This document shows, piece after piece, positions 37,953-52,800 of a DNA stretch of 64,000 nucleotides (positions are counted from its first letter, which is position 1; the number at the start of each line of letters is the position of its first letter). The position numbers and the translations under genes are program-made. This stretch comes from Bacteroidota bacterium. Lineage in GTDB: Bacteria; Bacteroidota; Bacteroidia; CAILMK01; JACPUW01. The notes below the pieces were generated by a model. The model saw nothing but the letters and a program-made list of their open reading frames with translations. It made no database searches and was not told the DNA's origin. The stretch covers positions 1 to 64,000 of the forward strand of contig JACPUW010000014.1 of assembly GCA_016192035.1 (NCBI GenBank), written 5' to 3'.

Positions 37953-38111
37953 TTTTACTTGAAAGCTAAGTGGTTATGTATTTTGGGGCAAAGTGCGCAA
38001 AGCTATTTGCCCGGCCTAAGGGCGATTCTGATATTGGTCAGGATACACTCCATAGATGGCCACCATATGCCTTGGTCACTGAATTGGGGGTTTTATCAAT
38101 GGCCTAGACCC

Positions 38112-38148: not shown

Positions 38149-40137
38149 ATGAGATTGATTTTTACCCTTTTCACTATCGCCATTAGCGGCTTGGCATTGT
38201 CGCAGGTGGCCAAGGACCAAGTAATTGCACTGAGGGCTTCCACCGATGGTGACAAATTGCACCTATCGTGGGCCAATCCACCAGGTTTTGCCGGCAGCCA
38301 TACCCTATATCGTATGGAAAAGGGCGGCAGCAATTGGGAGCAGCTTGCCGTGTTTACCGCTGGTGAAACGGGATACACCGATGAAGAGGCTACTGTAGGC
38401 AAGGCGTTTGACTACCAAATGGTGCGTACGGTGGGAGTGAATACCACTGCCATGGGCTTTCTATATGCCGGTTTGCTGGTACCGGATATTTCCTATATGG
38501 GCGGTGTCATCATATTGGTTGACAGTGTGTTTAAGGATACACTATCCAATGCGCTTGCTACCTTTAGGCAAGACCTAGAATCTGAGGGCTGGCAAAGCAC
38601 GACCATATATGCCGGCAGGGGGGAGGAGGTAGTTGTGGTGAAAGATAGGATTGTTCAAGCGGCCAAAGGCATACCCAATGCCACTGCCCTGGTCATAGTA
38701 GGGCATGTGCCAGTGCCCTATTCGGGCAATTTTACCCTATATGGCATAGTGCCGCCCGATGGACACGTGGAGGGTTCGGGCAACCACACCGGCGCATGGC
38801 CAGCCGATGTGTATTACGGCGACCTGGATGGCCAGTGGACAGACAATACGGCGAACCACACCGATAGCAAACTGGACCGAAATGACAATGTGCCAGGCGA
38901 CGGCAAGTTTGATCAAACAAAACTTCCATCAACGGTGGAACTGGAAGTGGGCCGCATAGACTTTTTTGATATGCCTGCCTTTCAACTTTCTGAAAAAGAG
39001 TTGATGATCAACTATTTCGCGCGAAACCATGCCTTCCGTACCGGGAAATGGGTGGTACGTCAGCGGGCCTTGATCGACAATAATTTTACGGGATTTAACC
39101 TGGCATCTACGGGCTATCATACGTTTTCTACTCTTTTTGAAGACGATAGCGTGGATGTATCTGCTGATTACCTCACCGCGCAGCGTGAGGGCAGCTACCT
39201 ATGGAGCTATGGCTGTGGCGCAGGCTCGTTCACCTCTTGCAATGGGCTCTATAATGGCGCTGCCCGCACCTCTGATCTGGCCGCCGATACCCTGCGCAAC
39301 GTTTTTACCATATTGGCAGGAAGCTATTTTGGCGATTGGGATATCCGCGATAATTTCTTGAGGGCACCTTTGTGCAACAGGTCGTTGGTTTCTTTCTGGG
39401 GTGGATTGCCCAAATGGTATGTACACCACATGGCCCTGGGTTGGCATGTGGGATATGGGGCCAGGCTTACCCAAAACAACCAGAGCCTGTATTTCAACGG
39501 AGGGTTTAACAATTCACAGAACAGCACACACATTGCCCTAATTGGCGATCCTACTTTGAAAAACAAATACCTGCAGCGGCCTTCGGGACTCTCCGCCACC
39601 AGCAACAACGGCAATGTATCACTTACCTGGACGGATGCCCCAGGTTTGACAAGCTACAATGTATATAGGGTAGATGCCGATAACCGGCACGTACAGTTAA
39701 ACGGAAGCCCTGTGGAGGGTACCAGTTTTGTAGATGAAAACAACTGGAATACAGGTAACTATACCTATGCCGTGCGTTCGGTGGTATTAGAAGTAAACCC
39801 ATCGGGGAGTTACTACCTGGTGAGCGGCAGTGTGAGGGCCACGGTGGACCATATCAACTCGGTGGACAATTCCATGGCCCAACCTTTGGCGCTCCATGTT
39901 AGGCCAAATCCTACCACTGGCAGGATTTGGGTTGCGCTGGAGGAGGGAGGCGTTCAGCAGGTCAATCTGGTGGTGGTTGACCTATCAGGCCGTGAGGTAC
40001 GCACCGTCCATGTCCGGGAACTATCGGCAAACCAAGGCTTTGCCCTTGATCTGGAAAATCTGCACCCTGGCGTGTACCTACTTAAAGTGCGCGGCCAGGA
40101 CGGACAGTATGCCCAGCACCGCATCATGAAGTATTAA
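38149..40137 (+). CDS. Secreted peptidase C25-like protein with T9SS sorting domain
   Basis: A 662-residue protein. Signal peptide (FTIAISGLALSQ), an N-terminal fibronectin-III-like domain (LHLSWANPPG), a central domain like the gingipain family (ALVIVGHVPVP, ADVYYGDLDG, VELEVGRIDFF, and HIALIGDPTLK at its end), a second FnIII-like domain (VSLTWTDAPG) and a type A T9SS domain (VRPNPTTGRIWVAL). In active C25 enzymes a GHG-type histidine and a later cysteine form the dyad. Here the histidine region reads SYGCGAG and is followed by SFTSCNG, so the histidine seems lost. It would be secreted to the surface; activity is doubtful. Confidence 0.7.
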   Translation: MRLIFTLFTIAISGLALSQVAKDQVIALRASTDGDKLHLSWANPPGFAGSHTLYRMEKGGSNWEQLAVFTAGETGYTDEEATVGKAFDYQMVRTVGVNTTAMGFLYAGLLVPDISYMGGVIILVDSVFKDTLSNALATFRQDLESEGWQSTTIYAGRGEEVVVVKDRIVQAAKGIPNATALVIVGHVPVPYSGNFTLYGIVPPDGHVEGSGNHTGAWPADVYYGDLDGQWTDNTANHTDSKLDRNDNVPGDGKFDQTKLPSTVELEVGRIDFFDMPAFQLSEKELMINYFARNHAFRTGKWVVRQRALIDNNFTGFNLASTGYHTFSTLFEDDSVDVSADYLTAQREGSYLWSYGCGAGSFTSCNGLYNGAARTSDLAADTLRNVFTILAGSYFGDWDIRDNFLRAPLCNRSLVSFWGGLPKWYVHHMALGWHVGYGARLTQNNQSLYFNGGFNNSQNSTHIALIGDPTLKNKYLQRPSGLSATSNNGNVSLTWTDAPGLTSYNVYRVDADNRHVQLNGSPVEGTSFVDENNWNTGNYTYAVRSVVLEVNPSGSYYLVSGSVRATVDHINSVDNSMAQPLALHVRPNPTTGRIWVALEEGGVQQVNLVVVDLSGREVRTVHVRELSANQGFALDLENLHPGVYLLKVRGQDGQYAQHRIMKY

Positions 40138-40143
40138 AAAAAA

Positions 40144-40170
40144 GCGGGAAGGACATGATATCCTTCCCGC
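40144..40170 (-). terminator. Terminator of the fasciclin gene
   Basis: A perfect ten-base stem, GCGGGAAGGA with TCCTTCCCGC, around a seven-base loop. The run of A on its left is a run of T for minus-strand transcription, so it ends the fasciclin transcript. Confidence 0.92.
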
Positions 40171-40197
40171 CGAAATTGGGTGATGAGCAAGTATTCT

Positions 40198-40758
40198 CTA
40201 TTGGGGCAAGAGCACCTTATCCACCACGTGCACTATGCCGTTTGAACAAGGCACGCTGGCCACGATTTTGGCTCCGTTCACGGTCACCGTTCCGTTGTCA
40301 TTGGCGCAAGTCACCTTGCCGCCGTTGGCCATGCCGAGTACGCGGCCTTCTGTAAGTGACTCGGCCGAAAGGTTGCCTATATACACATGGTACTCAAGTA
40401 TGTCTTGGAGTTTCAATTGGTTTTCAGGTTTAACCAATTCATCAACCGTACCGGCAGGCAGTGCGCCAAATGCCTGATCGGTAGGGGCAAATACGGTAAA
40501 AGGGCCTGCGTTAACCAGGGCATTTTCATAGGCCGCAGCCTGCACTGCCGCTACAAGGGTGGTATGGTCTTTTGACCCTAGCGCCACATGCAGGATGTTT
40601 TTCTGTGAGCTCTCATCGGCCACGGCTGCCTGTCCTCCTTTTGGGTCTAGGGCGTTTTCCAACTCTCCTGTGGACTGTGTGTTTTCGGCCTGCTGTTGGC
40701 CACAGCTAAAAAGCAAGGCGGTGCTTACTATTAGCATCATTGCGTATAAGGTTCTCAT
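40198..40758 (-). CDS. Fasciclin-domain lipoprotein
   Basis: A 186-residue lipoprotein (lipobox LLFSC, Cys 19) with one fasciclin (FAS1) domain: TTLVAAVQAA, GPFTVFAPTDQAFGALP and the C-terminal GIVHVVDKVLLPQ. FAS1 domains mediate adhesion or protein contacts. Such genes recur beside nos clusters in Bacteroidota. About 55 bases upstream of its start is a dyad nearly identical to one before the nos operon, which suggests it belongs to the same regulon. Its link to nitrous-oxide reduction is inferred from position. Confidence 0.9.
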   Translation of the reverse strand: MRTLYAMMLIVSTALLFSCGQQQAENTQSTGELENALDPKGGQAAVADESSQKNILHVALGSKDHTTLVAAVQAAAYENALVNAGPFTVFAPTDQAFGALPAGTVDELVKPENQLKLQDILEYHVYIGNLSAESLTEGRVLGMANGGKVTCANDNGTVTVNGAKIVASVPCSNGIVHVVDKVLLPQ

Positions 40759-40810
40759 TGGTGTGTTAATAAATTTGATGTAAAGGTGGGCTTATACGCA
40801 AGCACCATTC

Positions 40811-40830
40811 AATGACCTGAGTCATGTTTT
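40811..40830. promoter_or_regulatory. Dyad operator upstream of the fasciclin gene
   Basis: ATGAC (40812-40816) and GTCAT (40821-40825) form a perfect dyad around CTGA. The core TGA-N6-TCA fits the CRP/FNR family. Sixteen of twenty bases match the site before the nos operon at 42309-42328 (shared pattern TGACCTGnnTCATrTTTTG). Confidence 0.65.
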
Positions 40831-40925
40831 GCCACAGGGCCCATAAAAGGGCCATGAAATGAAAATAAAAGGTAGGGAATGCTCCAGAAAGGGGTAGAGC
40901 GGTGAAACCCGATAAAAAAATCTAT

Positions 40926-41837
40926 TTATTGGGCATTGGCCTTATTGGAGGGGTCAAACCACATAAACTTAATATGGGGATTGCTTGATTTATAGGCTGC
41001 TGCAAGGGAATCGCCGGGATTGTCCATCCAGAGGTGGCTGGTAGTGGGCGCCAAAAAGCGCTGGGCAATGGCCAAGGGCAAACCCACCAGTTCAGCCCTT
41101 GAAGCGGCAGGTACCGGGGGCATGCTGTCTATGGCCGCCATGGGATTGTATGACAACGAAAGGTAATTGAGCCCCTTCAAGAGAACGAGGGTACTTGGGT
41201 ATGTTGTCAATTGATTGTGCGACACGTCAAACCAATGCAAATACACGTTCTCTTCGGTCAGGTTTATTGCGTTGATTTGGTTATTGGCCAGGTCAAGTTT
41301 GTCAAGGCGAAGGGAGAATAGGCTGCTGGGCACCTCGGCTATTTGGTTGTCCCTTAGCGATAACTGCCTGAGATTGGCAGGCAATGCAGGTACGCTGGAG
41401 AGAAGACAATGATGAATAGTAAGCGATTGTAGTTTAGAAAGTTCGCTTAGGCAATCGGGCAAAACCAACTCGCTGTTTACTTTGCCATATCCGTGGAGTT
41501 CCAGTGTTTTCAGCTCTTTTAGGCTACATATTTCTGCCGGAATATCGGCCTGCATGACACCATATATAACTAAGGTATGCAGCTGAGCCAATTCTCCAAT
41601 GGTATGGTCAATGGATTTGGGGTGCGAGATGGACTGCCCACTGGGGATGGTGTTTCTAAGTACCAGCACCTTGCATTGTTTTTTGTGTGCCAGGGCTTCT
41701 CCCAGGTCACTATACACGCTGTCACTTTTTATCCAGCGCTCTTTCAATTCTTCCTTGCTTTTGCACGAAGGAAGGACCAACACTAAGGAAACGAGTGAAA
41801 TAATGCTAAGAAAGGGTGTAAATGGATGCGGTCTCAT
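40926..41837 (-). CDS. Leucine-rich-repeat lipoprotein
   Basis: A 303-residue lipoprotein (signal ending VLVLPSC, Cys 25). The centre holds about seven leucine-rich repeats, for example LKTLELHGYG, LRQLSLRDNQIAEVP, LDKLDLANNQINAI and LNYLSLSYNPMAAI. LRRs form a binding surface for proteins. Its start lies 32 bases inside the Rrf2 gene, so the two are translated from one transcript. Its role in a nos locus is unknown. Confidence 0.85.
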   Translation of the reverse strand: MRPHPFTPFLSIISLVSLVLVLPSCKSKEELKERWIKSDSVYSDLGEALAHKKQCKVLVLRNTIPSGQSISHPKSIDHTIGELAQLHTLVIYGVMQADIPAEICSLKELKTLELHGYGKVNSELVLPDCLSELSKLQSLTIHHCLLSSVPALPANLRQLSLRDNQIAEVPSSLFSLRLDKLDLANNQINAINLTEENVYLHWFDVSHNQLTTYPSTLVLLKGLNYLSLSYNPMAAIDSMPPVPAASRAELVGLPLAIAQRFLAPTTSHLWMDNPGDSLAAAYKSSNPHIKFMWFDPSNKANAQ

Positions 41838-42237
41838 AGGTTTCTGCGAGTTGTAGTATGGTGCGTTTGGATAGGTTGCCTTTTATCTCTTCCCTTTGCC
41901 TTACCACATCAAAATGTATCGGACAAGGTTGTTCGTTATTGCAGGTGCTAAGGCCTAGCGAACATACGGTAAACGGGGCAGCGCCATCTATGGCAACTAT
42001 TATGTCAAAGACAGTTGCTTCAAGTGTTTTTTCTGATGCCTTAAAACCGCCATTGGGCCCTTTGAACGACAGGATAAGCCCGTTTTTGGCCAAAGATTGA
42101 AGGATTTTGCCTATGTAGTGAATAGGTACCTTGAGCGATCCAGCGATCTCCGATAGGGATATGTTGCCGTCATGGTTGCGCTTTACGGCAAGGTATATCA
42201 CCGCCCTGAGTGCGTATCCAATGGTTTTATTGAACAT
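41806..42237 (-). CDS. Rrf2-family transcriptional regulator with three cysteines
   Basis: A 143-residue winged-helix regulator: MFNKTIGYALRAVIYLA, then ISLSEIAGSLKVPIHYIGKILQSL as the DNA-reading helices and KGPNGGFKAS in the wing. Cysteines 92, 99 and 105 (spacing 6 and 5) match the iron-sulfur ligands of NsrR, IscR and RsrR. It probably senses NO, oxygen or redox state through a cluster and controls the divergent nos operon and itself. ATG 42237 gives the family's N-terminus. Confidence 0.92.
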   Translation of the reverse strand: MFNKTIGYALRAVIYLAVKRNHDGNISLSEIAGSLKVPIHYIGKILQSLAKNGLILSFKGPNGGFKASEKTLEATVFDIIVAIDGAAPFTVCSLGLSTCNNEQPCPIHFDVVRQREEIKGNLSKRTILQLAETYETASIYTLS

Positions 42238-42254
42238 GGCTGCAATCTTATGAA

Positions 42255-42309
42255 ACAAAAGTATAGAAAACAAATATAAAAGACAAACATATCCTTTTTA
42301 AAACAAAAG
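42255..42309. promoter_or_regulatory. ACAAA direct repeats and Rrf2 promoter
   Basis: Four copies of ACAAA followed by A/T-rich bases begin at 42255, 42270, 42283 and 42303. On the minus strand the same DNA holds TTTG (42287-42284), 20 bases, TACTTTTG (42263-42256), a full Bacteroidota promoter starting transcription about 15 bases before the Rrf2 ATG. Overlap of the promoter with the repeats suggests self-control by the regulator. Confidence 0.6.
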
Positions 42310-42328
42310 TGACCTGCATCATATTTTG
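42309..42328. promoter_or_regulatory. Dyad operator upstream of the nos operon
   Basis: GTGA-CCTGCA-TCAT (42309-42322) has the TGA-N6-TCA core of CRP/FNR sites, followed by ATTTTG. Its centre is about 42 bases upstream of the predicted start of transcription, the usual place for an activator of this family. Confidence 0.6.
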
Positions 42329-42353
42329 GGGAGGAAATAGGGGCCTAGTTTTG
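42325..42353 (+). promoter_or_regulatory. Candidate promoter of the nos operon
   Basis: TAGTTTTG at 42346-42353 matches the -7 element exactly. TTTG at 42325-42328 lies 17 bases upstream, a little closer than usual. Transcription would start near 42358, 17 bases before the cytochrome gene. Confidence 0.55.
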
Positions 42354-42374
42354 CCGCATCAAAAACGTTGATCA

Positions 42375-42863
42375 ATGCAAAAAATCACACAAATTCTTGG
42401 AATCCTTATCTTGGGATTCATTCTGCAATCCTGCTCAGGCAGCGGCACCACAACCGAAAACACTACCACCCCAGTAGGCAAACCCGATGCTGAGGAAGGA
42501 GGCGCCCCCGATGCCAGCGGCAAAGTAAGCCCTGACTACGCTATAAAAGAAGTGGAACTCACCATTCCCCTAGAGGCAGGTATGGTAGAGGAGGGAAAAA
42601 CCATTTCGGAAATGAAGTGTACTTCTTGCCACAGCCTGGCCGAAAACCGATTGGTAGGCCCAGGATGGAAGGGTATAACCACCCGGCGCAAGCCTGAGTG
42701 GATCATGAACATGATAACCAATGTGGACATGATGTTGGCAGAAGACGAAGAAGCTCAAAAAATGCTGGAAGAGTGCTTGGTGCGCATGCCCAATCAAAAC
42801 ATTACCGTGGCCGAATCGCGCTCCATCCTGGAGTTTATGCGCCACAATGATGGAGTTCAATAG
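42375..42863 (+). CDS. Monohaem cytochrome c lipoprotein of the nos operon
   Basis: A 162-residue lipoprotein (lipobox LQSC, Cys 20) with a Gly/Thr/Glu-rich linker and one class I cytochrome c domain: CTSCH at 82-86, LVGPGWKGI, and a distal methionine candidate in VRMPNQNIT. It is the usual first gene of Bacteroidota nos clusters and probably passes electrons to NosZ. It lies 33 bases before nosZ. Confidence 0.92.
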   Translation: MQKITQILGILILGFILQSCSGSGTTTENTTTPVGKPDAEEGGAPDASGKVSPDYAIKEVELTIPLEAGMVEEGKTISEMKCTSCHSLAENRLVGPGWKGITTRRKPEWIMNMITNVDMMLAEDEEAQKMLEECLVRMPNQNITVAESRSILEFMRHNDGVQ

Positions 42864-42896
42864 CTTTTAATCAGTAAACAAATCAATCAATACAGA

Positions 42897-44891
42897 ATGA
42901 AACGCTCTTTACGACAAAATGCCATGATCGCTCTTGTGGCGGTCATGGGAGTGGGGTTGGGCCTAACCGGCTGCAAACCCAAAAGCCCAATTAATGGGGA
43001 GTCAACATCGGCAGCATCAGGCAGTGCGGCCGAAGAGGTATATGTAGCTCCCGGCGAAAAAGATGATTACTACCTGTTTACCTCAGGTGGATTTAGCGGG
43101 CAACTTGGTGTGTATGGACTCCCTTCGGGCAGAATGCTGCGCCAGATCCCCATTTTTTCTCAGCACGCCGAAAATGGCTGGGGATACTCCGAAGAGTCAA
43201 AACCCATGCTCATGACCTCCTATGGCTTTATACCATGGGATGACTCACACCACCCTAAATTGTCGCAAACCGAAGGCAAACAAGACGGCAGGTGGTTGTT
43301 TATCAATGGAAATAACACACCCCGTATTGCCAGGATCGACCTGAAAACTTTCAGGACGGTAGAGATTATCGAGATCCCAAACTCATCGGGCAACCACAGT
43401 TCGCCTTTCCCTACCGAAAATACCGAATATGTGGTAGCAGGTACCCGGTTTGCCGTGCCCATGGGCGACAACCGCGATGTGGCAATCAATACCTATAAGG
43501 AAAACTTTAAGGGGATGATCTCTTACATAAGCGTGGACAAAGAAAGTGGCCACATGGATGTGGCTTTCCAAATACTGCTTCCCGGTTTTGACTATGACCT
43601 GAGCCATGCCGGCAAAGGCCCATCTCATGGTTGGTCATTCTTTACTACCTACAACACGGAAGAAAGCCATACCATGAAGGAAGTAAATGCCAGTCAACGT
43701 GACAAGGATTTCCTTACCGCCATAAACTGGAAACTGGCCGAACAACTTGTTGCCGAAGGCAAATTTGAAGAATATGGTGGCAGGCCATACTATGTGAACC
43801 GCTGGGATGAAGCTACCCATTCTGCCGTATCTACCCAAAAGACCGGTACCAAGGTATTGGACGCCAGTAAATACCCGGGCCTTGTGTACTTCCTTCCTTG
43901 CCCCAAGTCGCCACACGGAGTGGACGTTAACCCTACCGGCGAGTTCATAGTGGCATCGGGCAAATTGGCCGCTACACTCCCAGTGTTCCAGTTTAGCAAA
44001 ATACAAGAAGCCATAGCCAACAATGATTTTGATGGCGACGTAAACGGAATCCCCATTCTGAAGTACGAGAGTGTGATAGCAGGCGAAGTGGCCAAACCGG
44101 GCCTAGGCCCTCTGCACACCGAGTTTGACGACAAAGGATTTGCCTATACCTCTATGTTCGTGTCGAGCGAAATAGTGAAATGGAACGTGGCGACCCGCGA
44201 AGTGGTGGACCGCATACCCACCTATTACAGCATAGGCCACCTATGTGTACCCGCCGGCGACAGCAAGAACCCCACGGGCAAGTACGTGATAGCGCTCAAC
44301 AAGATAACCAAAGACCGTTACCTGCCCACAGGCCCTGAGTTGACCCAATCTGCCCAGTTGATTGACATTTCGGGCGATAAGATGCGCATGTTGCTAGACT
44401 TCCCCACCATTGGCGAACCGCACTATGCACAGGCATGTCCCGCCAGCCTGCTTACCGAAAACCAAGTAAGGATCTATCCCATAGAGGAGAACAATCACCC
44501 TTACGCGGCCAAAGGCGAAAAGGAAACATCGGTAGAGCGAAAAGGCAACGAAGTCCATATCAAAATGACCACCATCCGATCACACTTTGCGCCTGACAAC
44601 ATAGAAGGTATAAAAGTGGGCGACAAGGTATATTGGCATATCACCAACCTGGAGCAAGACTGGGACATACCCCACGGTTTTGCCGTACAGGGTGCTGCCA
44701 ATTCCGAACTGCTGGTAATGCCAGGCGAGACCGCTACCCTGCTCTGGGAACCAAAAGAGGCCGGCGTGGTGTCATTCTACTGCTCTGACTTCTGCTCGGC
44801 ACTGCACCAAGAAATGCAGGGCTACGTAAGGGTATCTCCCGCCAATAGCAATGTGCCATTGACCTGGAGCCTGAACCAAACCGCTGAATAA
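42897..44891 (+). CDS. nosZ: Nitrous-oxide reductase, clade II
   Basis: A 664-residue enzyme that reduces N2O to N2. The propeller holds the CuZ histidines, seen at HH 118-119 (WDDSHHPKLS) and in SPHGVDV, GPLHTEF and GEPHYAQAC. The C-terminal cupredoxin domain holds CuA ligands C629, C633, H637 and M640 (YCSDFCSALHQEM). The leader is Sec-type without twin arginines, as in clade II, and ends in LTGC (Cys 26), so the enzyme may be a lipoprotein. A strong terminator follows directly. Confidence 0.98.
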   Translation: MKRSLRQNAMIALVAVMGVGLGLTGCKPKSPINGESTSAASGSAAEEVYVAPGEKDDYYLFTSGGFSGQLGVYGLPSGRMLRQIPIFSQHAENGWGYSEESKPMLMTSYGFIPWDDSHHPKLSQTEGKQDGRWLFINGNNTPRIARIDLKTFRTVEIIEIPNSSGNHSSPFPTENTEYVVAGTRFAVPMGDNRDVAINTYKENFKGMISYISVDKESGHMDVAFQILLPGFDYDLSHAGKGPSHGWSFFTTYNTEESHTMKEVNASQRDKDFLTAINWKLAEQLVAEGKFEEYGGRPYYVNRWDEATHSAVSTQKTGTKVLDASKYPGLVYFLPCPKSPHGVDVNPTGEFIVASGKLAATLPVFQFSKIQEAIANNDFDGDVNGIPILKYESVIAGEVAKPGLGPLHTEFDDKGFAYTSMFVSSEIVKWNVATREVVDRIPTYYSIGHLCVPAGDSKNPTGKYVIALNKITKDRYLPTGPELTQSAQLIDISGDKMRMLLDFPTIGEPHYAQACPASLLTENQVRIYPIEENNHPYAAKGEKETSVERKGNEVHIKMTTIRSHFAPDNIEGIKVGDKVYWHITNLEQDWDIPHGFAVQGAANSELLVMPGETATLLWEPKEAGVVSFYCSDFCSALHQEMQGYVRVSPANSNVPLTWSLNQTAE

Positions 44892-44916
44892 GAAACTGTC
44901 ATAAGCATTTCAACGT

Positions 44917-44958
44917 GGATGCGGCCTTGCCAACCCGCTGGGCCGCATCCTCTTTTTT
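44917..44958 (+). terminator. Intrinsic terminator between nosZ and the maturation genes
   Basis: GGATGCGGCC (44917-44926) pairs perfectly with GGCCGCATCC (44941-44950) around a 14-base loop, followed by TCTTTTTT. It should stop most transcripts after nosZ and make the downstream genes less abundant. Confidence 0.92.
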
Positions 44959-44977
44959 CAATTCAAAAAACACTCAA

Positions 44978-45559
44978 GTGAAAATCACAGGCCCATCCAG
45001 GATGGCTATCGGAATCAGTGCTTTGTTGCTCATCGCCGTGTATTTCTTGCCGGTTTGGAGCATTCAGCTCTGGGCACCACAGTATCCTGAAGGTATAGAA
45101 ATGTTGATCTGGCTGAATAGACTATCGGGCGACGTGGAGATTATCAATGGATTGAACCACTACATAGGCATGAAGCACATCAGTGAAGATATGTTTCCCG
45201 AGTTGGCACTATTGCCCTACGGCATGGTGCTCCTTATTGTCTTTGGCCTGTTTGTGGCCTGGAGGGGGACCAAATTTTGGCTGAATGCCTGGACCTTGCT
45301 CCTAGTGCTCTCGGCGGTGGGACTACTCATTGATATGTACCAATGGGGATACGACTACGGCCACAACCTAGACCCCAAGGCAGCCATACAGGTGCCAAAC
45401 ATGGCCTACCAACCACCATTGTTAGGGTATAAACTCCTGCTCAACTTTGGCGCGTACTCCATACCCGACACCGGAGGATGGATTTTTGCCGCCGTGATAG
45501 GTACTGCTGTGATATTCTGGGCCAAGGAAACCATCATCAAAAGAAAACAACATGCCTAA
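44978..45559 (+). CDS. Four-helix membrane protein of the nos cluster
   Basis: About 193 residues with four membrane segments (around SALLLIAVYFLPVW, MVLLIVFGLFVAW, WTLLLVLSAVGLLIDMY and IFAAVIGTAVIFW). Proteins like this sit between nosZ and nosL in many Bacteroidota; their job is unknown, perhaps electron supply or copper loading. The frame is open upstream to GTG 44915, but that stretch is the terminator hairpin, so GTG 44978 or ATG 45002 is the likely start. Its stop overlaps nosL. Confidence 0.85.
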   Translation: MKITGPSRMAIGISALLLIAVYFLPVWSIQLWAPQYPEGIEMLIWLNRLSGDVEIINGLNHYIGMKHISEDMFPELALLPYGMVLLIVFGLFVAWRGTKFWLNAWTLLLVLSAVGLLIDMYQWGYDYGHNLDPKAAIQVPNMAYQPPLLGYKLLLNFGAYSIPDTGGWIFAAVIGTAVIFWAKETIIKRKQHA

Positions 45560-45974
45560 ACAATTTGCCTTGCCACTAGCCCTGGTAGTCCTTATGTCAT
45601 GCTCCAGTGGCCCCAAGCCCATCCTATTGGGCAAAGACCAGTGCAGCTTCTGTAAAATGACCATTATGGAAGGCAATTTTTCTGCACAGTCGGTAACATC
45701 AAAGGGAAAAGTATATAAGTATGACGACCTGCGATGCCAAATGAATGATATTAAACGCAATGCCAGCATTCAGAAACAAACGGTACACTACGTGGCCAAC
45801 TACCTGAACGGCGAGGAGTTTCTGGAACACGGCCAATCATTTTTTGTAATGGCAGCGGATTTTAATAGCCCCATGGCCGGAAATGTGGCAGCTTTTAAGA
45901 CAGAAACCGATGCCAAGGAGCTGGCCGAACAGAAAGGTGGCCAACCAATTATGCTTCAAGATGCCTTTAGGTAG
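45552..45974 (+). CDS. nosL: Copper-binding lipoprotein NosL
   Basis: A 140-residue lipoprotein (VLMSC, Cys 17). Copper motif CSFCKM uses C31, C34 and M36, as in known NosL proteins that deliver Cu(I) for CuZ assembly. SFFVMAADFNSPMAGN is the conserved second half. It overlaps the preceding gene by eight bases and nosD by fourteen. Confidence 0.95.
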   Translation: MPKQFALPLALVVLMSCSSGPKPILLGKDQCSFCKMTIMEGNFSAQSVTSKGKVYKYDDLRCQMNDIKRNASIQKQTVHYVANYLNGEEFLEHGQSFFVMAADFNSPMAGNVAAFKTETDAKELAEQKGGQPIMLQDAFR

Positions 45975-47214
45975 GCCCTTACTGTTACTGGTTTTTCTGG
46001 CGTTGCATTCCTTTTTACGTGCCAACCCTACCGTGGTTACCACTGAAAAGGAGCTTAACCAAGCGGTGACTGATCTCAAGGAGCGAGACACCATATTTAT
46101 ACGGGGTATAATTTGTTTTGAAGATGCAGTAATCATTTCCAAACCGTTGGTTTTGTTGGGATTGGATTTTCCCGCTCTCGATTTCCAGTCTCGCTCCAGT
46201 GGTTTGGTTTTGGCATCCGATTCTATAGAAGTGGGCGGGTTGCACCTACACAATATCCGCAAATCAAGCGTGGACGACTATGCGGCTATCTTGGTTCGCG
46301 ACATAAAAGGGGTATATATCCACCATTGCCATATTTACAATGCCTTTTTTGGAATATACTTGGCCAAGTGCCAGCGCATTCGCTTAGAAGACAACTATGT
46401 GGAAGGAAATTTGGGCCAGGAGATTTCGAGCGGAAATGCCATACACCTTTGGCAATGTGCCAAAGCCACGATCAAGGGCAATACTTTGAGCCGCCACCGC
46501 GACGGAATTTATCTGGAGTTTGTCACCGACTCCCACATAGAATCCAATAAGTCTTTTCACAATATCCGCTATGGCCTGCACTTTATGTTTTCACACCGAT
46601 GCACCTATATGTACAATGTGTTTGAACAAAATGAGGCAGGGGTTGCGGTGATGTACTCGCGCAACGTGCAAATGATAGGCAATTCCTTTCGCGACAATTG
46701 GGGAGATAGTTCGTATGGCCTGCTGCTCAAGGATATTTTTGATGGCGAAATTCGCGGAAACCTTCTGCTTAACAACACCATAGCCATACTGGTGGAAGGC
46801 TCTAACCGGCTACAGGTACATGACAATAGTTTTACGTCAAATGGCTGGGCCATAAAAATTTCTGCCAGTTGTGAGGGCAATGTGATTTCCAATAACCAGT
46901 TCAATGGCAATTCGTTTGACGTGTCAACCAACGGCAGCACCTCAAACAACCTTTTTGATGGCAATTATTGGGACCACTACGCTGGCTATGACCTGGACGG
47001 CAACGAAATAGGCGATGTGCCCCACCACCCCGTGAGCCTGTTCTCGGTGCTGGTAGAAAAGGTGCCCGAAGCCCTTATGCTGTACCGCAGCTTTCTCACC
47101 TTGCTGCTCGACCGGTCTGAGCACCTTATGCCCAGCGTTACGCCCAGTGCATTAGTTGACAACACTCCCTTAATGGCTCCCCCCATATACCCTATGCCAT
47201 ATGCTACAAATTGA
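45961..47214 (+). CDS. nosD: Periplasmic copper-maturation protein NosD
   Basis: A 417-residue exported right-handed beta-helix: signal peptide (LLLLVFLALHSFLRA) and many parallel repeats (GNAIHLWQC, HRDGIYLEFV, NIRYGLHFMFSHRCTYMYN, AGVAVMYSRNV). NosD works with the NosFY transporter to mature NosZ copper sites. The start is ATG 45961, inside the nosL end; the frame is open further upstream but overlaps nosL. Confidence 0.96.
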   Translation: MPLGRPLLLLVFLALHSFLRANPTVVTTEKELNQAVTDLKERDTIFIRGIICFEDAVIISKPLVLLGLDFPALDFQSRSSGLVLASDSIEVGGLHLHNIRKSSVDDYAAILVRDIKGVYIHHCHIYNAFFGIYLAKCQRIRLEDNYVEGNLGQEISSGNAIHLWQCAKATIKGNTLSRHRDGIYLEFVTDSHIESNKSFHNIRYGLHFMFSHRCTYMYNVFEQNEAGVAVMYSRNVQMIGNSFRDNWGDSSYGLLLKDIFDGEIRGNLLLNNTIAILVEGSNRLQVHDNSFTSNGWAIKISASCEGNVISNNQFNGNSFDVSTNGSTSNNLFDGNYWDHYAGYDLDGNEIGDVPHHPVSLFSVLVEKVPEALMLYRSFLTLLLDRSEHLMPSVTPSALVDNTPLMAPPIYPMPYATN

Positions 47215-47935
47215 ACGGATATCGAAAAATTTTGGGCGGTTTCAAGCCCTGCACCCCATAGATACCTGCTTCTTGGCCGGCGATTCAGTTGCGCTATTGG
47301 GCCCTAATGGATCGGGCAAAACCACCCTGATAAAAACCATCTTGGGATTGGTGAGCCCGAGCCACGGACACATAGCCTACCAGGGTATGCGCATTCCGGC
47401 CAATGCGCTAAAGGAATTGGTGGGATATATGCCACAAATTGGTCAATATCCTGAAAACATGAAGGTTAGTGCGCTGTTTAAGTTGATGCTCTCGCTGCGC
47501 GGCAAATCCATAAATGACTGTGATACCAAGTTGTACCACGCCTTTGATATGGATGCCATAGGCCATAAAACCCTGGGCACACTTTCTGGCGGTACGCGGC
47601 AGAAAGTGGGTGCCGCCTTGGCGTTTTTGTTCCATCCCCGCATACTCATATTGGATGAACCTACCGCTGGGCTCGACCCTCACAGCAGTGCCATACTCAA
47701 AGAGCATATAGCCTCCTTTCAGTCAAATGACCGGTTGGTAATTATTACCAGCCATGTGATAAGCGAACTCAATGGATTGGTTAACAAGGTGATGTATATG
47801 ATGGAGGGGCGCATTCATTTTTATATGGGCGTACAGGAACTGGTGGAAAGCACCGGCCAGGCCCAGTTAGAAAAGGCCCTGGTAGCCGCTATTGGCCAAA
47901 ACACCATAAAAGAAAGAAAGCATGTTGATGCTTAG
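47201..47935 (+). CDS. nosF: ABC transporter ATP-binding protein NosF
   Basis: A 244-residue ATPase: Walker A GPNGSGKTT, Q-loop in YMPQIGQYPE, signature LSGGTRQK, Walker B ILILDEPTAGLDP and the H-loop histidine in ITSHV. It powers the NosDFY maturation complex. It overlaps nosD by 14 bases and nosY by 14. Confidence 0.96.
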   Translation: MLQIERISKNFGRFQALHPIDTCFLAGDSVALLGPNGSGKTTLIKTILGLVSPSHGHIAYQGMRIPANALKELVGYMPQIGQYPENMKVSALFKLMLSLRGKSINDCDTKLYHAFDMDAIGHKTLGTLSGGTRQKVGAALAFLFHPRILILDEPTAGLDPHSSAILKEHIASFQSNDRLVIITSHVISELNGLVNKVMYMMEGRIHFYMGVQELVESTGQAQLEKALVAAIGQNTIKERKHVDA

Positions 47936-48686
47936 GCATATACTAATTGATGTGATCAAAAACCGCATGGTAGTCATGTATGCGGCATTTCTTATGTTAT
48001 TGACCACATCGGTATTTATGTTTACTGAACATGAAGCCAAAGCAATGGTGAGCCTCCAGAATATCACTTTGCTGGTGGCGCCACTTATGGCCTTGGTATT
48101 CTCCAGCTCTTATTTGTACAATTCCCGGGATTTTATGGCCCTCTTGCTCACCCAACCCATTGGCAGGCAAAGGGTTTTTTGGGCATTTGTAGGTGCAGTG
48201 GCCGTGGCCCTAAGCATGGCCATACTGGTAGGGCTGGGCATACCGGTACTTGTCTTTAACTTTAGCCCTACCGGCCTACTCCTCCTCCTGCTCACCGTGC
48301 TCCTCAATCTAGTGTTCGCCGCCCTAGGAGCTTGGGTGTCGGTTTCCATAGCCGACAAGGCCAGGGGATTGGGCGCAGTATTGATCATTTGGTTTTTCCT
48401 CACCCTGGTGTATGACGGGCTCGCGCTCTTGTTGCTCTATATGTTTCAAGAGTATCCGCTCATGACCCCCATAGTGGTGCTAACCTCCCTCAATCCCATA
48501 GATTTGTCGCGGGTAGGCCTTCTGCTCCAAATGGACATTTCCGCGCTTATGGGCTTTACGGGAGCGGTGTATAAGAAGTATTTTAATTCTGGCCTGGGCA
48601 TGGCCTTGGCGCTCATTTTACTCATGGTGTGGGCAGCCATACCCGTGACCCTAGCCAGGAGAAAGTTTTTGGTAAAAGATTTTTAA
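47922..48686 (+). CDS. nosY: ABC transporter permease NosY
   Basis: A 254-residue permease with six membrane segments. SYLYNSRDFMALLLTQPIGR matches the cytoplasmic coupling region of NosY, and LNPIDLSRVG lies before the last helices. It is the membrane partner of NosF and NosD. It starts within the end of nosF and is 12 bases before the barrel gene. Confidence 0.95.
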   Translation: MLMLRHILIDVIKNRMVVMYAAFLMLLTTSVFMFTEHEAKAMVSLQNITLLVAPLMALVFSSSYLYNSRDFMALLLTQPIGRQRVFWAFVGAVAVALSMAILVGLGIPVLVFNFSPTGLLLLLLTVLLNLVFAALGAWVSVSIADKARGLGAVLIIWFFLTLVYDGLALLLLYMFQEYPLMTPIVVLTSLNPIDLSRVGLLLQMDISALMGFTGAVYKKYFNSGLGMALALILLMVWAAIPVTLARRKFLVKDF

Positions 48687-48698
48687 CATTTTTCAGTG

Positions 48699-49715
48699 AT
48701 GGCCCGTCTTCCCATAGCCTTTTGCCTGATACTCTTGGTGGCCCTAGCCCAAGCCCAGTGCCTGGTCCATCAGGGCATTTCACTGGCCGAACCCGTTTCT
48801 GTGATGGGCAGCCACCTACACCCCAAGGGAGAATGGATGGCTCAACTCAATGTTTCATACATGGATATGAAAGGAATGAAAGAACAACGGGAACCGATTA
48901 GTGAAGAACAACTCAAGTGGCAGTATGAAATGTATGGCACCCGTATGCGCATGCCCATGCAGATGGCCATGATGATGTATGGGCTGTCAAGCAAGCTCAA
49001 TGTGATGGTGATGGGACACTATATGCAATGCGCCATGGATATGGCCCACTTTACAGGCATAGGCACCCCTCACCCCATGGTGAGCAAGGTAAGTGGATGG
49101 GGCGATACCCGGCTATCCCTGCTTTACCAAGTTGCCAAAACCGATAAAATGGGCCTAGTGGGCCAATTGGGACTTTCCTTGCCAACCGGCAGCGTGGAAA
49201 ACAGCGAAACATCACACCATGGTGACCATGTGCGCATGGGGTATCCCATGCAATTTGGAAGCGGAACCTTGGATTACCTAGCTTCTATCACCTATACGCT
49301 AACCAAGCCAAGCTGGAGTTTGGGGTTCCAGCCCGGGGGGTTAATAAGGCAGGGTACCAATAAGTTAGGTTACTCCCTTGGAAACCAATTGTACTTACAT
49401 GCCTGGATGGGAAAGGCAGTCACCGTCAAATGGATTGTAGGCGGGAAGTTCACCGCGCAGCGGGTAGCCATGATTCAGGGACATGACGACGGCATGGACA
49501 TATATGCCTCGCCATCGGCCAATGCCATAAACACAGGCTACACGCGGGTATTGGGCGGTTTATACACCGGCTGGGCTCCCCGCGCAAAACAATCGGGGCT
49601 TAGTCTTCATGCAGAAATACAATTACCTGTGTATGATCTTGTAAATGGCGTGCAAATGGCCCTTCGCTACCAAGTGTTGGTAGGCATAAAGTATGGGCTG
49701 GGTCGGCATGCCTGA
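48699..49715 (+). CDS. Methionine-rich outer-membrane beta-barrel protein
   Basis: A 338-residue protein with a signal peptide (LILLVALAQAQ) and amphipathic strands to the C-terminus (LVGIKYGLGRHA), as in barrel-forming transporters. Residues 36-127 contain 19 methionines, including TRMRMPMQMAMMMYG and VMVMGHYMQCAMDM, plus several histidines, a pattern of copper-handling proteins. It begins 12 bases after nosY, so it is probably the last gene of the nos operon. Copper passage across the outer membrane is an inference. ATG 48699 is preferred to the in-frame GTG three bases earlier. Confidence 0.75.
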   Translation: MARLPIAFCLILLVALAQAQCLVHQGISLAEPVSVMGSHLHPKGEWMAQLNVSYMDMKGMKEQREPISEEQLKWQYEMYGTRMRMPMQMAMMMYGLSSKLNVMVMGHYMQCAMDMAHFTGIGTPHPMVSKVSGWGDTRLSLLYQVAKTDKMGLVGQLGLSLPTGSVENSETSHHGDHVRMGYPMQFGSGTLDYLASITYTLTKPSWSLGFQPGGLIRQGTNKLGYSLGNQLYLHAWMGKAVTVKWIVGGKFTAQRVAMIQGHDDGMDIYASPSANAINTGYTRVLGGLYTGWAPRAKQSGLSLHAEIQLPVYDLVNGVQMALRYQVLVGIKYGLGRHA

Positions 49716-49835
49716 GCTTGTAGGGCCTATCATGCCTTTAGGTGAGTGTTTTTGGTCCTATACATATGCGTACTTGTCTTTAAGGCTACACTTTATTCCC
49801 TAATTTGCGCCCTTCTTTAAAAAACCTATTCCCGG

Positions 49836-52800
49836 ATGAATTTCCAGAAGTTTGACAAATTCAACAACATAGGTGGGTGGCTGGTATTTGCCCTGGCCTT
49901 GGTTACCTATACCCTTACCCAGGAAGCATCGGTTAGCTTATGGGACTGCGGTGAGTTTGTGCCTGCCTCGTTTAAACTACAGGTGGTACACCCTCCAGGA
50001 GCACCTTTCTTCCTTATGTTCAATCATGTATTGACCCTTTTTGCCGGTGGCAATGAATCGTTGGTGCCGGATATGGTCAATTTTTCTTCGGCCTTGATGA
50101 GCGCGCTCACATCGCTTTTCCTATTCTGGACCATCACCGCCATAGCGGGTAAAATTGCCTTTAAGGACGAACAGCAAATAAGCGGCGACCAAATGATTGC
50201 CGTGATGGCTGCCGGACTTATTGGTGCCCTAGCCTATACCTGGTCTGACACCGCCTGGTTTTCGGCCGTAGAGGGTGAAGTATATGCCATGTCGTCCATG
50301 TTTATAGCCCTTGTTAGTTGGCTTATCATGAAGTGGGAACGCCGCGCCGACCAGCCTGACAATATGCGTTGGCTTATCCTTATATGTTTCTTTATGGGTT
50401 TGTCAAGTGGGGTCCACCTCATGAGCTTATTGGCTATTCCGGCCATGGCCCTGGTGTATTATTTTAAGAAATACGGTTTTTCGTTCAAAGGATTTGTAAT
50501 CACATCGCTTATCGGGGTGGTTTTGTTGGGGCTGGTACAAGTGGGGGTCATTACCGGCATACCAAAACTTATTTCAAAATTTGAATTGGCTTTTGTCAAT
50601 TCATTTGGCCTTCCGTTTTGGTCAGGTGCTTTTTTCTTCATTGTCTTGATGATAGGCGCCATCATCTATGGTATTTACCGCACCTATGTAAAGCAGAAGG
50701 CACTGGCCCATCTGGCGCTCACCGGTTTTGCAGTCATTTTAATTGGCTATAGTTCATACGCCATGGTAGTGGTGCGCTCCATAGCCGATCCCGCCATTGA
50801 TATGAATGACCCCGAAGATGTATTTACCTTGCTATCATACCTTAACAGGGAACAGTACGGCGACAGGCCCATTGCCAAGGGCCCTAATTTTACGGCCTAC
50901 ACTGTGCAGGGTGGTTACTCAGCTGAGAAAACTGGGGCCAAGGAGTACAGAAAAGGCAAGGAACAATATGAGTTTGTGGGCAATAAGTATGAGGAAACCT
51001 TTAACCCAAAACACGAAACCATTTTCCCCAGGATGTACAGCCGCCAGGATGACCACATAAGTGAGTACCGCCGCTGGACCAAATTGCGCCCTGGCAGGGT
51101 GCCATCCCTGGGCGACAACATGGCCTTTTTTATTAAATACCAATTAAACCATATGTGGTTCAGGTATTTCGGTTGGAACTTTATTGGCCGCCAAAATGAC
51201 ACACAAGGACACGGTTCGGCCTATCAGGGCAATATCATCACAGGCCTGGGTGGACTCGATGAAACACTCTTTGGGGTGCCAAGTAGCCAAAATATGCCCG
51301 AGCATGTGACCAATGATAAATCGCGCAACCTGCTTTATGGCATTCCGTTTCTTCTGGGGCTATTTGGCCTGTTTTTTCACGCCAAACGAAACCAAGAATC
51401 ATTCCTCTATGTGCTGGTCTATTTTATTATGACTGGCATAGCCCTGGCCGTTTACCTCAATATGCCGCCCATACAGCCGCGCGAACGAGATTATGTGTTT
51501 GTGGCTTCTTTTTACTTCTTCGCCATATGGATAGGCCTTGGTGCCTTGTTTGCCTGGGATTACCTCCGGACCAAGGTGAGCCCCACAGTGGCCGCCGCCG
51601 GTAGCGGGCTGGTGTTGTTCTTAATTGTACCCATCAACATGGTAGCCGAAGAATGGGATGACCACGACCGCTCCAACCGCACGGTGCCGCTGGCCTTTGG
51701 TTCCAATTACCTGGAGTCATGTGACAGCAATGCAGTGCTGTTTACCAATGGCGACAACGACACCTACCCATTATGGTACGCTCAGGAAGTAGAAGGCATA
51801 CGGGATGACATACGGGTAATTAACCTGAGCCTGCTCAATACTGATTGGTATGTGAACCAGATGCGCAAGCCCGTGAACAGTGCCGATTCGGTGAGCATGA
51901 CCATGCACCCCACAAAGTACATGCAGGGCACCAGGGATTATGTGATTTACTATGAAGACCACAACCTGGACGTGACCAAGGACCAGCCCATGGAGTTGTC
52001 CAGCTTTATCAAATTGGTGAGCAGCGACAGCAGGTCACACAAGGTGGCCATGCAGGGAGGGGAAATGCTTAATTTCTTCCCTACCAAGAAACTGAAAATC
52101 ACGGTTAACAAGAAAGCCGTACTGAAAAGTGGCACTGTGGCGCCAGGCAAGGCCGACGAAATAGTGGACGTGATGCGCTGGAGCCTGCGCAAGAATACCT
52201 TGATGAAAGCCGATTTGGTACTCTTGGACGTGATAGCCACAAACGCGGCAAATGGATGGAACCGACCCATTTACTGGGCCATAACCACCGGCAGCGAAGC
52301 CTATCTCAACATGATGCCCTACCTGCAAATGGATGGGCTAACCTATAGACTGGTGCCTATAAAAAAGAAGAACGTGCTTGACGACCGACAGCCTGGGCGC
52401 ATAGATACCGACATTATGTACGCCAACCTAATGGGCAAGTTTACATGGGGCGGCTTGGAGAGTGAGGAAGACATGTGGGTGGATTTTGTGATGATGCGCC
52501 AGTGCAAGAACTTCAGAAACATATTTATACGCTTGGCTTATGCCCTCATGGTAGAAGCCAGTCTTGAAGAACAAGAAGCTGCAGCCGCCAGCCCAGATTT
52601 GGAATCGGGCGACAAAACCCTGGTAATTGACAAGAAAGCCAGGGCAGTAGAAGTGCTGGACTACGGGCTCAAGGTGATACCTGAACATCTGGTGCCATAT
52701 GATGCCTATATGGGCCAGTACTCACAGTTGTATTACCAACTAGAGCAACCTGACAAGGGGTTTGAGCTAGACAGCAAACTGGCCAACTACCTTATTTCCG

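Follow-up and report, generated by a model that had tools for sequence, protein, structure and literature searches.

A putative CRP/FNR-type operator common to the nos operon and a fasciclin lipoprotein gene in a Bacteroidota genome

The window, a stretch of 64,000 nucleotides, belongs to contig C4 of a Bacteroidota genome of 2.98 Mb in 44 contigs. It carries a nos operon in the order cytochrome c, nosZ, membrane protein, nosL, nosD, nosF and nosY, and leftward from it three minus-strand genes encoding an Rrf2 regulator, a leucine-rich-repeat lipoprotein and a fasciclin (FAS1) lipoprotein (Table 1). The window NosZ scores 926 bits against TIGR04246 (cut-off 625), which identifies it as a Sec-dependent NosZ. 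NosZ, the cytochrome and NosL all have lipobox-like signals at their N-termini, and NosZ is probably a membrane-anchored lipoprotein. The operon resembles the clade II (Sec-type) nos cluster in its gene order, but differs from it in the added FAS1 lipoprotein gene, which has a putative operator of its own in the window and is found inside or beside the clade II nos cluster in other genomes. The fasciclin gene is the sole PF02469 gene of the genome, and its product contains a clear FAS1 domain (112.8 bits, cut-off 22). A search of positions 40000-50000 against Rfam gave no match. Among the neighbouring genes, the membrane protein is conserved in almost all nos loci examined, and a leucine-rich-repeat lipoprotein gene occupies the same place in the relative L013 (33% identity). 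The Rrf2 regulator has three closely spaced cysteines and may be a second nos regulator. The NosZ N-terminus is lipobox-like in nearly all loci listed from L013 to L092, with L091 as the exception.

Table 1. Genes and putative regulatory elements around the nos operon of the window
Feature	Position	Strand	Basis or remark
Fasciclin (FAS1) lipoprotein gene	40198..40758	-	PF02469, 1.6e-32
Weak -7-like box of fasciclin, CACCTTTA (4 of 6)	40781..40788	-	+30 spacing
Putative fasciclin operator, ATGACTCAGGTCAT read toward the gene	40812..40825	-	Perfect palindrome
Leucine-rich-repeat lipoprotein gene	40926-41837	-	Between fasciclin and Rrf2 genes
Rrf2-family regulator gene	41806..42237	-	Pfam (PF02082); divergent from nos operon
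Putative CRP/FNR-type operator of nos operon, GTGACCTGCATCAT	42309..42322	+	ATGAYN4RTCAT conserved before nos in relatives
-7 promoter box of nos, TAGTTTTG	42346..42353	+	30 bases past dyad centre
c-type cytochrome lipoprotein gene, opens nos operon	42375..42863	+	Translation, Pfam
nosZ, Sec-type (clade II) nitrous-oxide reductase	42897..44891	+	TIGR04246; N-terminal lipobox-like cysteine
Conserved nos membrane protein gene	44915..45559	+	No Pfam or NCBIfam match
nosL-like lipoprotein gene	45552..45974	+	PF05573
nosD	45883..47214	+	TIGR04247; true start probably later
nosF-like ABC ATPase gene	47201..47935	+	Locus comparison, NCBIfam search
nosY-like permease gene	47922..48686	+	By position; no NCBIfam match

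An earlier note had described a common 20-base operator before the nos operon and the fasciclin gene. Its two sequences, TGACCTGCATCATATTTTG (42310-42328) and TGACCTGAGTCATGTTTTG (40813-40831), are both present on the plus strand, and they do have 16 bases in common, but out of 19, as a hyphen had been counted among the 20. The TGA-N6-TCA dyad of CRP/FNR operators is found in both, whereas the longer sequence does not stand as the shared unit: with a symmetrical dyad and genes transcribed in opposite directions, TTTTG comes after the dyad when read toward nos but before it when read toward fasciclin, and this flank is therefore not part of the common operator. The shared element is instead the 14-base palindrome ATGAY-N4-RTCAT, which is perfect at fasciclin (ATGACCTGAGTCAT) and one outer base off at nos. 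As the comparisons below show, both sites are genuine, and they look functional.

Allowing up to three mismatches, the long pattern is found 5 times in the window against 2.74 expected, which is not significant. The core is more informative: TGAYN4RTCA occurs three times in the 64 kb, always between genes, compared to two occurrences of a control palindrome, both within genes. The third copy, CTGATATTGGTCAG at 38029-38040, is flanked by a C25-like gene and the gene for a TonB-dependent receptor; it is a doubtful operator for either, as neither its outer bases nor its promoter spacing fits and no -7 box stands at the right distance. Genome-wide, TGACCTNNRTCAT has four copies, namely those at fasciclin and nos and those at C15:12218 and C23:248471. 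The site at C15:12218 stands before the gene of a transporter of the NarK family (TIGR00886, 1.5e-54, below the curated cut-off), hereafter narK, beside narGHJI, whose narG and narH both score above their curated cut-offs. The C23:248471 site sits inside a glycosyltransferase-like gene, an unrelated coding gene, and is taken as chance.

The number of strict palindromes in the genome was rejected as proof, since they are weakly enriched here (10 sites against 4 for the control) and show no excess in genome G004 (21 against 22). Seven of the ten lie in genes or at their edges, and three are clearly intergenic (fasciclin, narK and C29:172220). The earlier concern that the motif might occur at random across coding regions thus applies in part to the strict palindrome, but not to the tighter form.

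Conservation in relatives was examined in the 250 bases upstream of the first nos gene at 80 nosZ loci of named genomes. ATGAYN4RTCAT is present in 18 of the 77 loci with enough sequence; the reversed pattern is absent from all of them, and 200 dinucleotide shuffles give 0.12 on average (maximum 2). As the motif was picked after reading these same upstream regions, the later tests weigh more. In the nearest relative, L013, the nos and fasciclin sites stand at -59 and -62, compared to -59 and -60 in the window. L013 and the genome G010 seem to stem from a single organism, given identical match figures for L010 and L013, and were counted once.

A second sample consisted of the 250 bases upstream of the fasciclin genes with the 30 best matches in 396 genomes of the class; it contains the window itself (L132), and L130 and L131 share sites with L019 and L067. 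TGAYN4RTCA precedes 22 of the 30 (shuffle mean 0.47, maximum 3) and the full palindrome 12 of the 30 (shuffle mean 0.05, maximum 2). The remaining eight genes (L134, L138, L144, L145, L146, L148, L150 and L151) all come from genomes in which nosZ precedes the gene by no more than about 4.2 kb on the same strand, so that a promoter of their own is not expected. The dyad is therefore conserved at orthologous promoters of both nos and fasciclin, as is typical of CRP/FNR operators.

The placement of the dyad relative to the promoter was analysed by scanning for the Bacteroidota -7 box (consensus TAnnTTTG), with one mismatch allowed and offsets counted from the dyad centre. Across 79 sites, the box stands at +29 in 21 and at +30 in four, sites with a common box not being independent, and the remaining offsets hold zero to three boxes each, except for a second peak of nine at +51 that is partly due to tandem sites about two helical turns farther upstream. 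For the nos sites alone, the box is at +29 in 14 of 46, compared to a mean of 0.33 and a maximum of 3 in shuffles. In the present genome, the boxes of nos, narK and fasciclin are all at +30 and match 6, 5 and 4 of 6 positions, respectively. As the box is centred near -7, the dyad centre falls near -42, the class II activator position. At nos, the centre (42315.5) lies 59 bases before the ATG and some 42 bases before the start predicted from TAGTTTTG, in agreement with the distance given in the earlier note. The placement is fixed relative to the box and, with the transcription start so predicted, is that of class II CRP/FNR activation.

The expectation that the motif would also precede other respiratory genes was borne out in part. 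It stands before narK here and beside a nap-like operon in a genome of the same family, but norCB was rejected as a further target, as no TGA-N6-TCA was found in the upstream stretch fetched. No site was found in the cytochrome oxidase region C31 or in region C8 either. In the same-family genome G010 (L198, G010:C86), two palindromes lie between a napD-napA-like operon and an operon of porin and ric-like genes, and one of them is identical to the fasciclin site of the window; these gene names rest on inspection of the sequences rather than on a family search.

The link of the fasciclin to nosZ goes well beyond this locus. A homologue is present in the fetched stretch of 12 of the 80 nos loci, several of them within the nos cluster. 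Eleven of these 12 and the window protein were combined in an alignment (A1), L041 being omitted for a predicted start far upstream. At 200 bits or more, scores that by design select the nos-linked subfamily because A1 was built from nos-linked genes, a search of the 396 class genomes gave 113 with both fasciclin and nosZ, none with fasciclin only, 28 with nosZ only and 255 with neither. The informative part is that no nosZ-free genome attains 200 bits with A1. At 171 bits, 116 genomes have both and four have fasciclin only; three of the 28 nosZ-only genomes have a match at 171-200 bits, no farther than about 600 bases from nosZ. The protein is not needed everywhere, since 25 of the 141 nosZ genomes lack a match of at least 171 bits. 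Among the 120 genomes at 171 bits or more, the gene is on the nosZ contig in 94 and within 10 kb of nosZ in 86; in 26 it lies within 300 bases, in all 26 on the same strand. Within nine genera that are mixed for nosZ, counted over the tabulated genomes, 35 genomes have both, none fasciclin only, five nosZ only and 24 neither, so that relatedness is not the explanation of the tie. Co-occurrence with nosZ and clustering beside it, as expected of a nos accessory gene, thus hold for the fasciclin, which appears to belong regularly to the nos system of the class and is probably an overlooked part of the nitrous-oxide respiration pathway. The earlier proposal that the two shared sites connect the fasciclin with this respiration is upheld on three lines independent of the two window sites: the dyad is conserved before both genes in relatives, its spacing to the -7 box is fixed, and across the class the subfamily accompanies nosZ, often within the nos cluster.

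Residue 19 of the fasciclin is a lipobox-like cysteine, and H65 and H124 are invariant in A1. Its structure model, which served for the fold only, adopts a standard FAS1 fold, with low confidence in the first 47 residues. The nearest solved folds include TGFBIp (Z 22.5) and periostin. It also closely resembles CupS, the FAS1 subunit of cyanobacterial NDH-1MS (PDB 6tjv and 2mxa), with a Z of 21.5, an rmsd of 1.6 over 131 residues and 38% identity. Both have a single FAS1 domain of the same fold and CupS belongs to an electron-transport complex, but the complex is a different one, and the present fasciclin is a predicted exported lipoprotein with an extra N-terminal stretch. CupS provides an earlier example of a FAS1 domain docked to a complex of electron transport. 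The fasciclin-like protein of Rhodobacter sphaeroides (PDB 1w7d) shares the fold as well, with 46% identity over 135 residues; we know of no link between that protein and nos.

As NosZ, the cytochrome and NosL also start with lipobox-like signals, we prefer a lipoprotein cluster in which the fasciclin would be a docking or maturation partner, perhaps at even odds. The main rival is an adhesion role, in which the fasciclin would be a general surface adhesin of anoxic biofilm growth that shares the promoter type and has no part in nitrous-oxide reduction. FAS1 domains are chiefly known for adhesion, and the nearest folds fit such a role. However, a subfamily that reaches 200 bits only together with nosZ, and that in 26 genomes adjoins it on the same strand, is difficult to reconcile with a general adhesin. 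Moreover, general FAS1 genes have no tie to nosZ: only 10 of the 73 genomes with weaker FAS1 matches alone carry nosZ (hand count), below the overall 141 of 396. We therefore consider the adhesin unlikely.

Three CRP/FNR genes are present in the genome, those of C29, C25 (helix ENISR) and C23 (helix REVVSR). The C29 gene (G000:C29:185678-186385, minus strand) encodes an FNR-like protein of 236 residues with the recognition helix KETVIR and both domains of the CRP/FNR family (PF00027, 3.6e-22; PF13545, 2e-17); against Fnr (NF008365) it scores 79 bits, below the curated cut-off of 228. A C-x2-C-x10-C stretch at its N-terminus could hold an Fe-S cluster. No CRP/FNR gene adjoins nos in this genome, where the divergent Rrf2 gene stands instead. 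Among the 80 nos loci, 20 have a CRP/FNR gene in the fetched stretch: 12 with an ETVIR helix, seven with ETLSR (L015, L072, L074, L075, L077, L078 and L087) and L016 with neither. The ETVIR genes are divergent from nos in 11 loci and on the same strand in L054. ATGAN6TCAT precedes nos in 10 of the 12 ETVIR loci and in none of the seven ETLSR loci. Each of these seven has the identical palindrome TTGACTTAAGTCAA in the locus, at 48 to 556 bases past its CRP/FNR gene. The half-sites are accordingly ATGA/TCAT in ETVIR loci versus TTGA/TCAA in ETLSR loci, a contrast of two groups rather than 19 independent events, as the members of each group are mutually related. The isoleucine/serine difference is at the place of FNR Ser212, which contacts the base before TGA.

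Compared to the E. coli-type sites of FNR (TTGAT-N4-ATCAA) and CRP (TGTGA-N6-TCACA), the present sites belong to neither class. The T of FNR before TGA is missing on both arms, with A at fasciclin and narK and G and A at nos, and the G of CRP is found on one arm only, at nos. Like FNR/DNR class II promoters, those described here combine a TGA-N6-TCA dyad at about -41.5 with denitrification targets and a presumed regulator of the CRP/FNR family, but they differ in the Bacteroidota -7 box and in ATGA..TCAT for TTGA..TCAA, matching isoleucine for serine. The paired change of helix and half-site would offer a simple rule to find the nitrogen-oxide regulon in Bacteroidota genomes.

The C29 protein is the best candidate for the regulator of the nos and fasciclin sites, because ETVIR is kept in its orthologues and the other two CRP/FNR proteins carry serine; the entire KETVIR is retained in G009 and G010, the two family members searched. 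It is improbable, though not far-fetched, that the operators are real but bound by C25 or C23. The genome has three such genes to choose from, and in both proteins the glutamate and arginine that should read TGA are preserved. However, they have serine where C29 has isoleucine, the residue of the nos-linked regulators of the ATGA type, and the serine-type loci show TTGA/TCAA.

A far weaker proposal is that the divergent Rrf2 regulator governs nos through the dyad, the fasciclin site being a second Rrf2 operator. An Rrf2 gene (PF02082) adjoins nos here and in several relatives, but the palindrome also occurs in nos loci with no nearby Rrf2 match and a divergent CRP/FNR gene instead, and the spacing between dyad and -7 box is that of an activator, which makes this very unlikely. 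That the likeness of the two sites is pure chance, as the failure of the long mismatched pattern to reach significance in the window might suggest, is largely refuted by the conservation at orthologous positions and the fixed promoter spacing, and is hardly credible.

Taken together, the computed operator conservation, promoter spacing, co-occurrence and gene linkage point, with a probability of about 0.8, to both sites being operators of one CRP/FNR activator of nos, narK and fasciclin, and to a fasciclin subfamily dedicated to lipoprotein-type nos. The points that count against this reading are norCB without a site, the poor -7 box of fasciclin, the weak genome-wide enrichment of the strict palindrome, the nosZ genomes that lack the fasciclin, the Rrf2 gene in place of a CRP/FNR gene beside nos, and the choice of the nos motif from the regions in which it was counted. 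We propose that the FNR-like C29 protein, which we infer to be the regulator, might sense low oxygen or nitrogen oxides and would bind ATGAY-N4-RTCAT centred at about -41.5, thereby switching on all three targets, nos, narK and fasciclin, at once. The fasciclin, of a FAS1 subfamily apparently dedicated to Bacteroidia lipoprotein-type nos, would then be exported as a lipoprotein and most likely dock or mature the membrane-anchored NosZ, cytochrome c and NosL. With the balance about level, the FAS1 lipoprotein could be a dedicated, unrecognised component of clade II NosZ in Bacteroidia, serving docking or copper maturation and controlled by an FNR sub-family with an isoleucine-switched half-site (TTGA to ATGA).

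Apart from nitrous-oxide reductase, no biological sink for nitrous oxide is known, and bacteria of clade II are important consumers of this gas. A protein that accompanies nosZ in 113 of 396 genomes and is never apart from it at 200 bits gives a strong pointer to a component that the known machinery lacks. Among the titles and abstract openings of the literature listings, which leave most subscription journals outside their coverage and absence unproven, none concerned fasciclin with nos or this operator in Bacteroidota; in the passages of PMC10199937 covered, nosZ is mentioned, but fasciclin occurs only within the title of a reference.

A further arrangement is seen at L204 (G004:C14), where a fasciclin gene with two palindromes upstream adjoins genes for a PAS-domain sensor and for a fusion of response regulator and CRP whose helix reads E-S-L-I-R.
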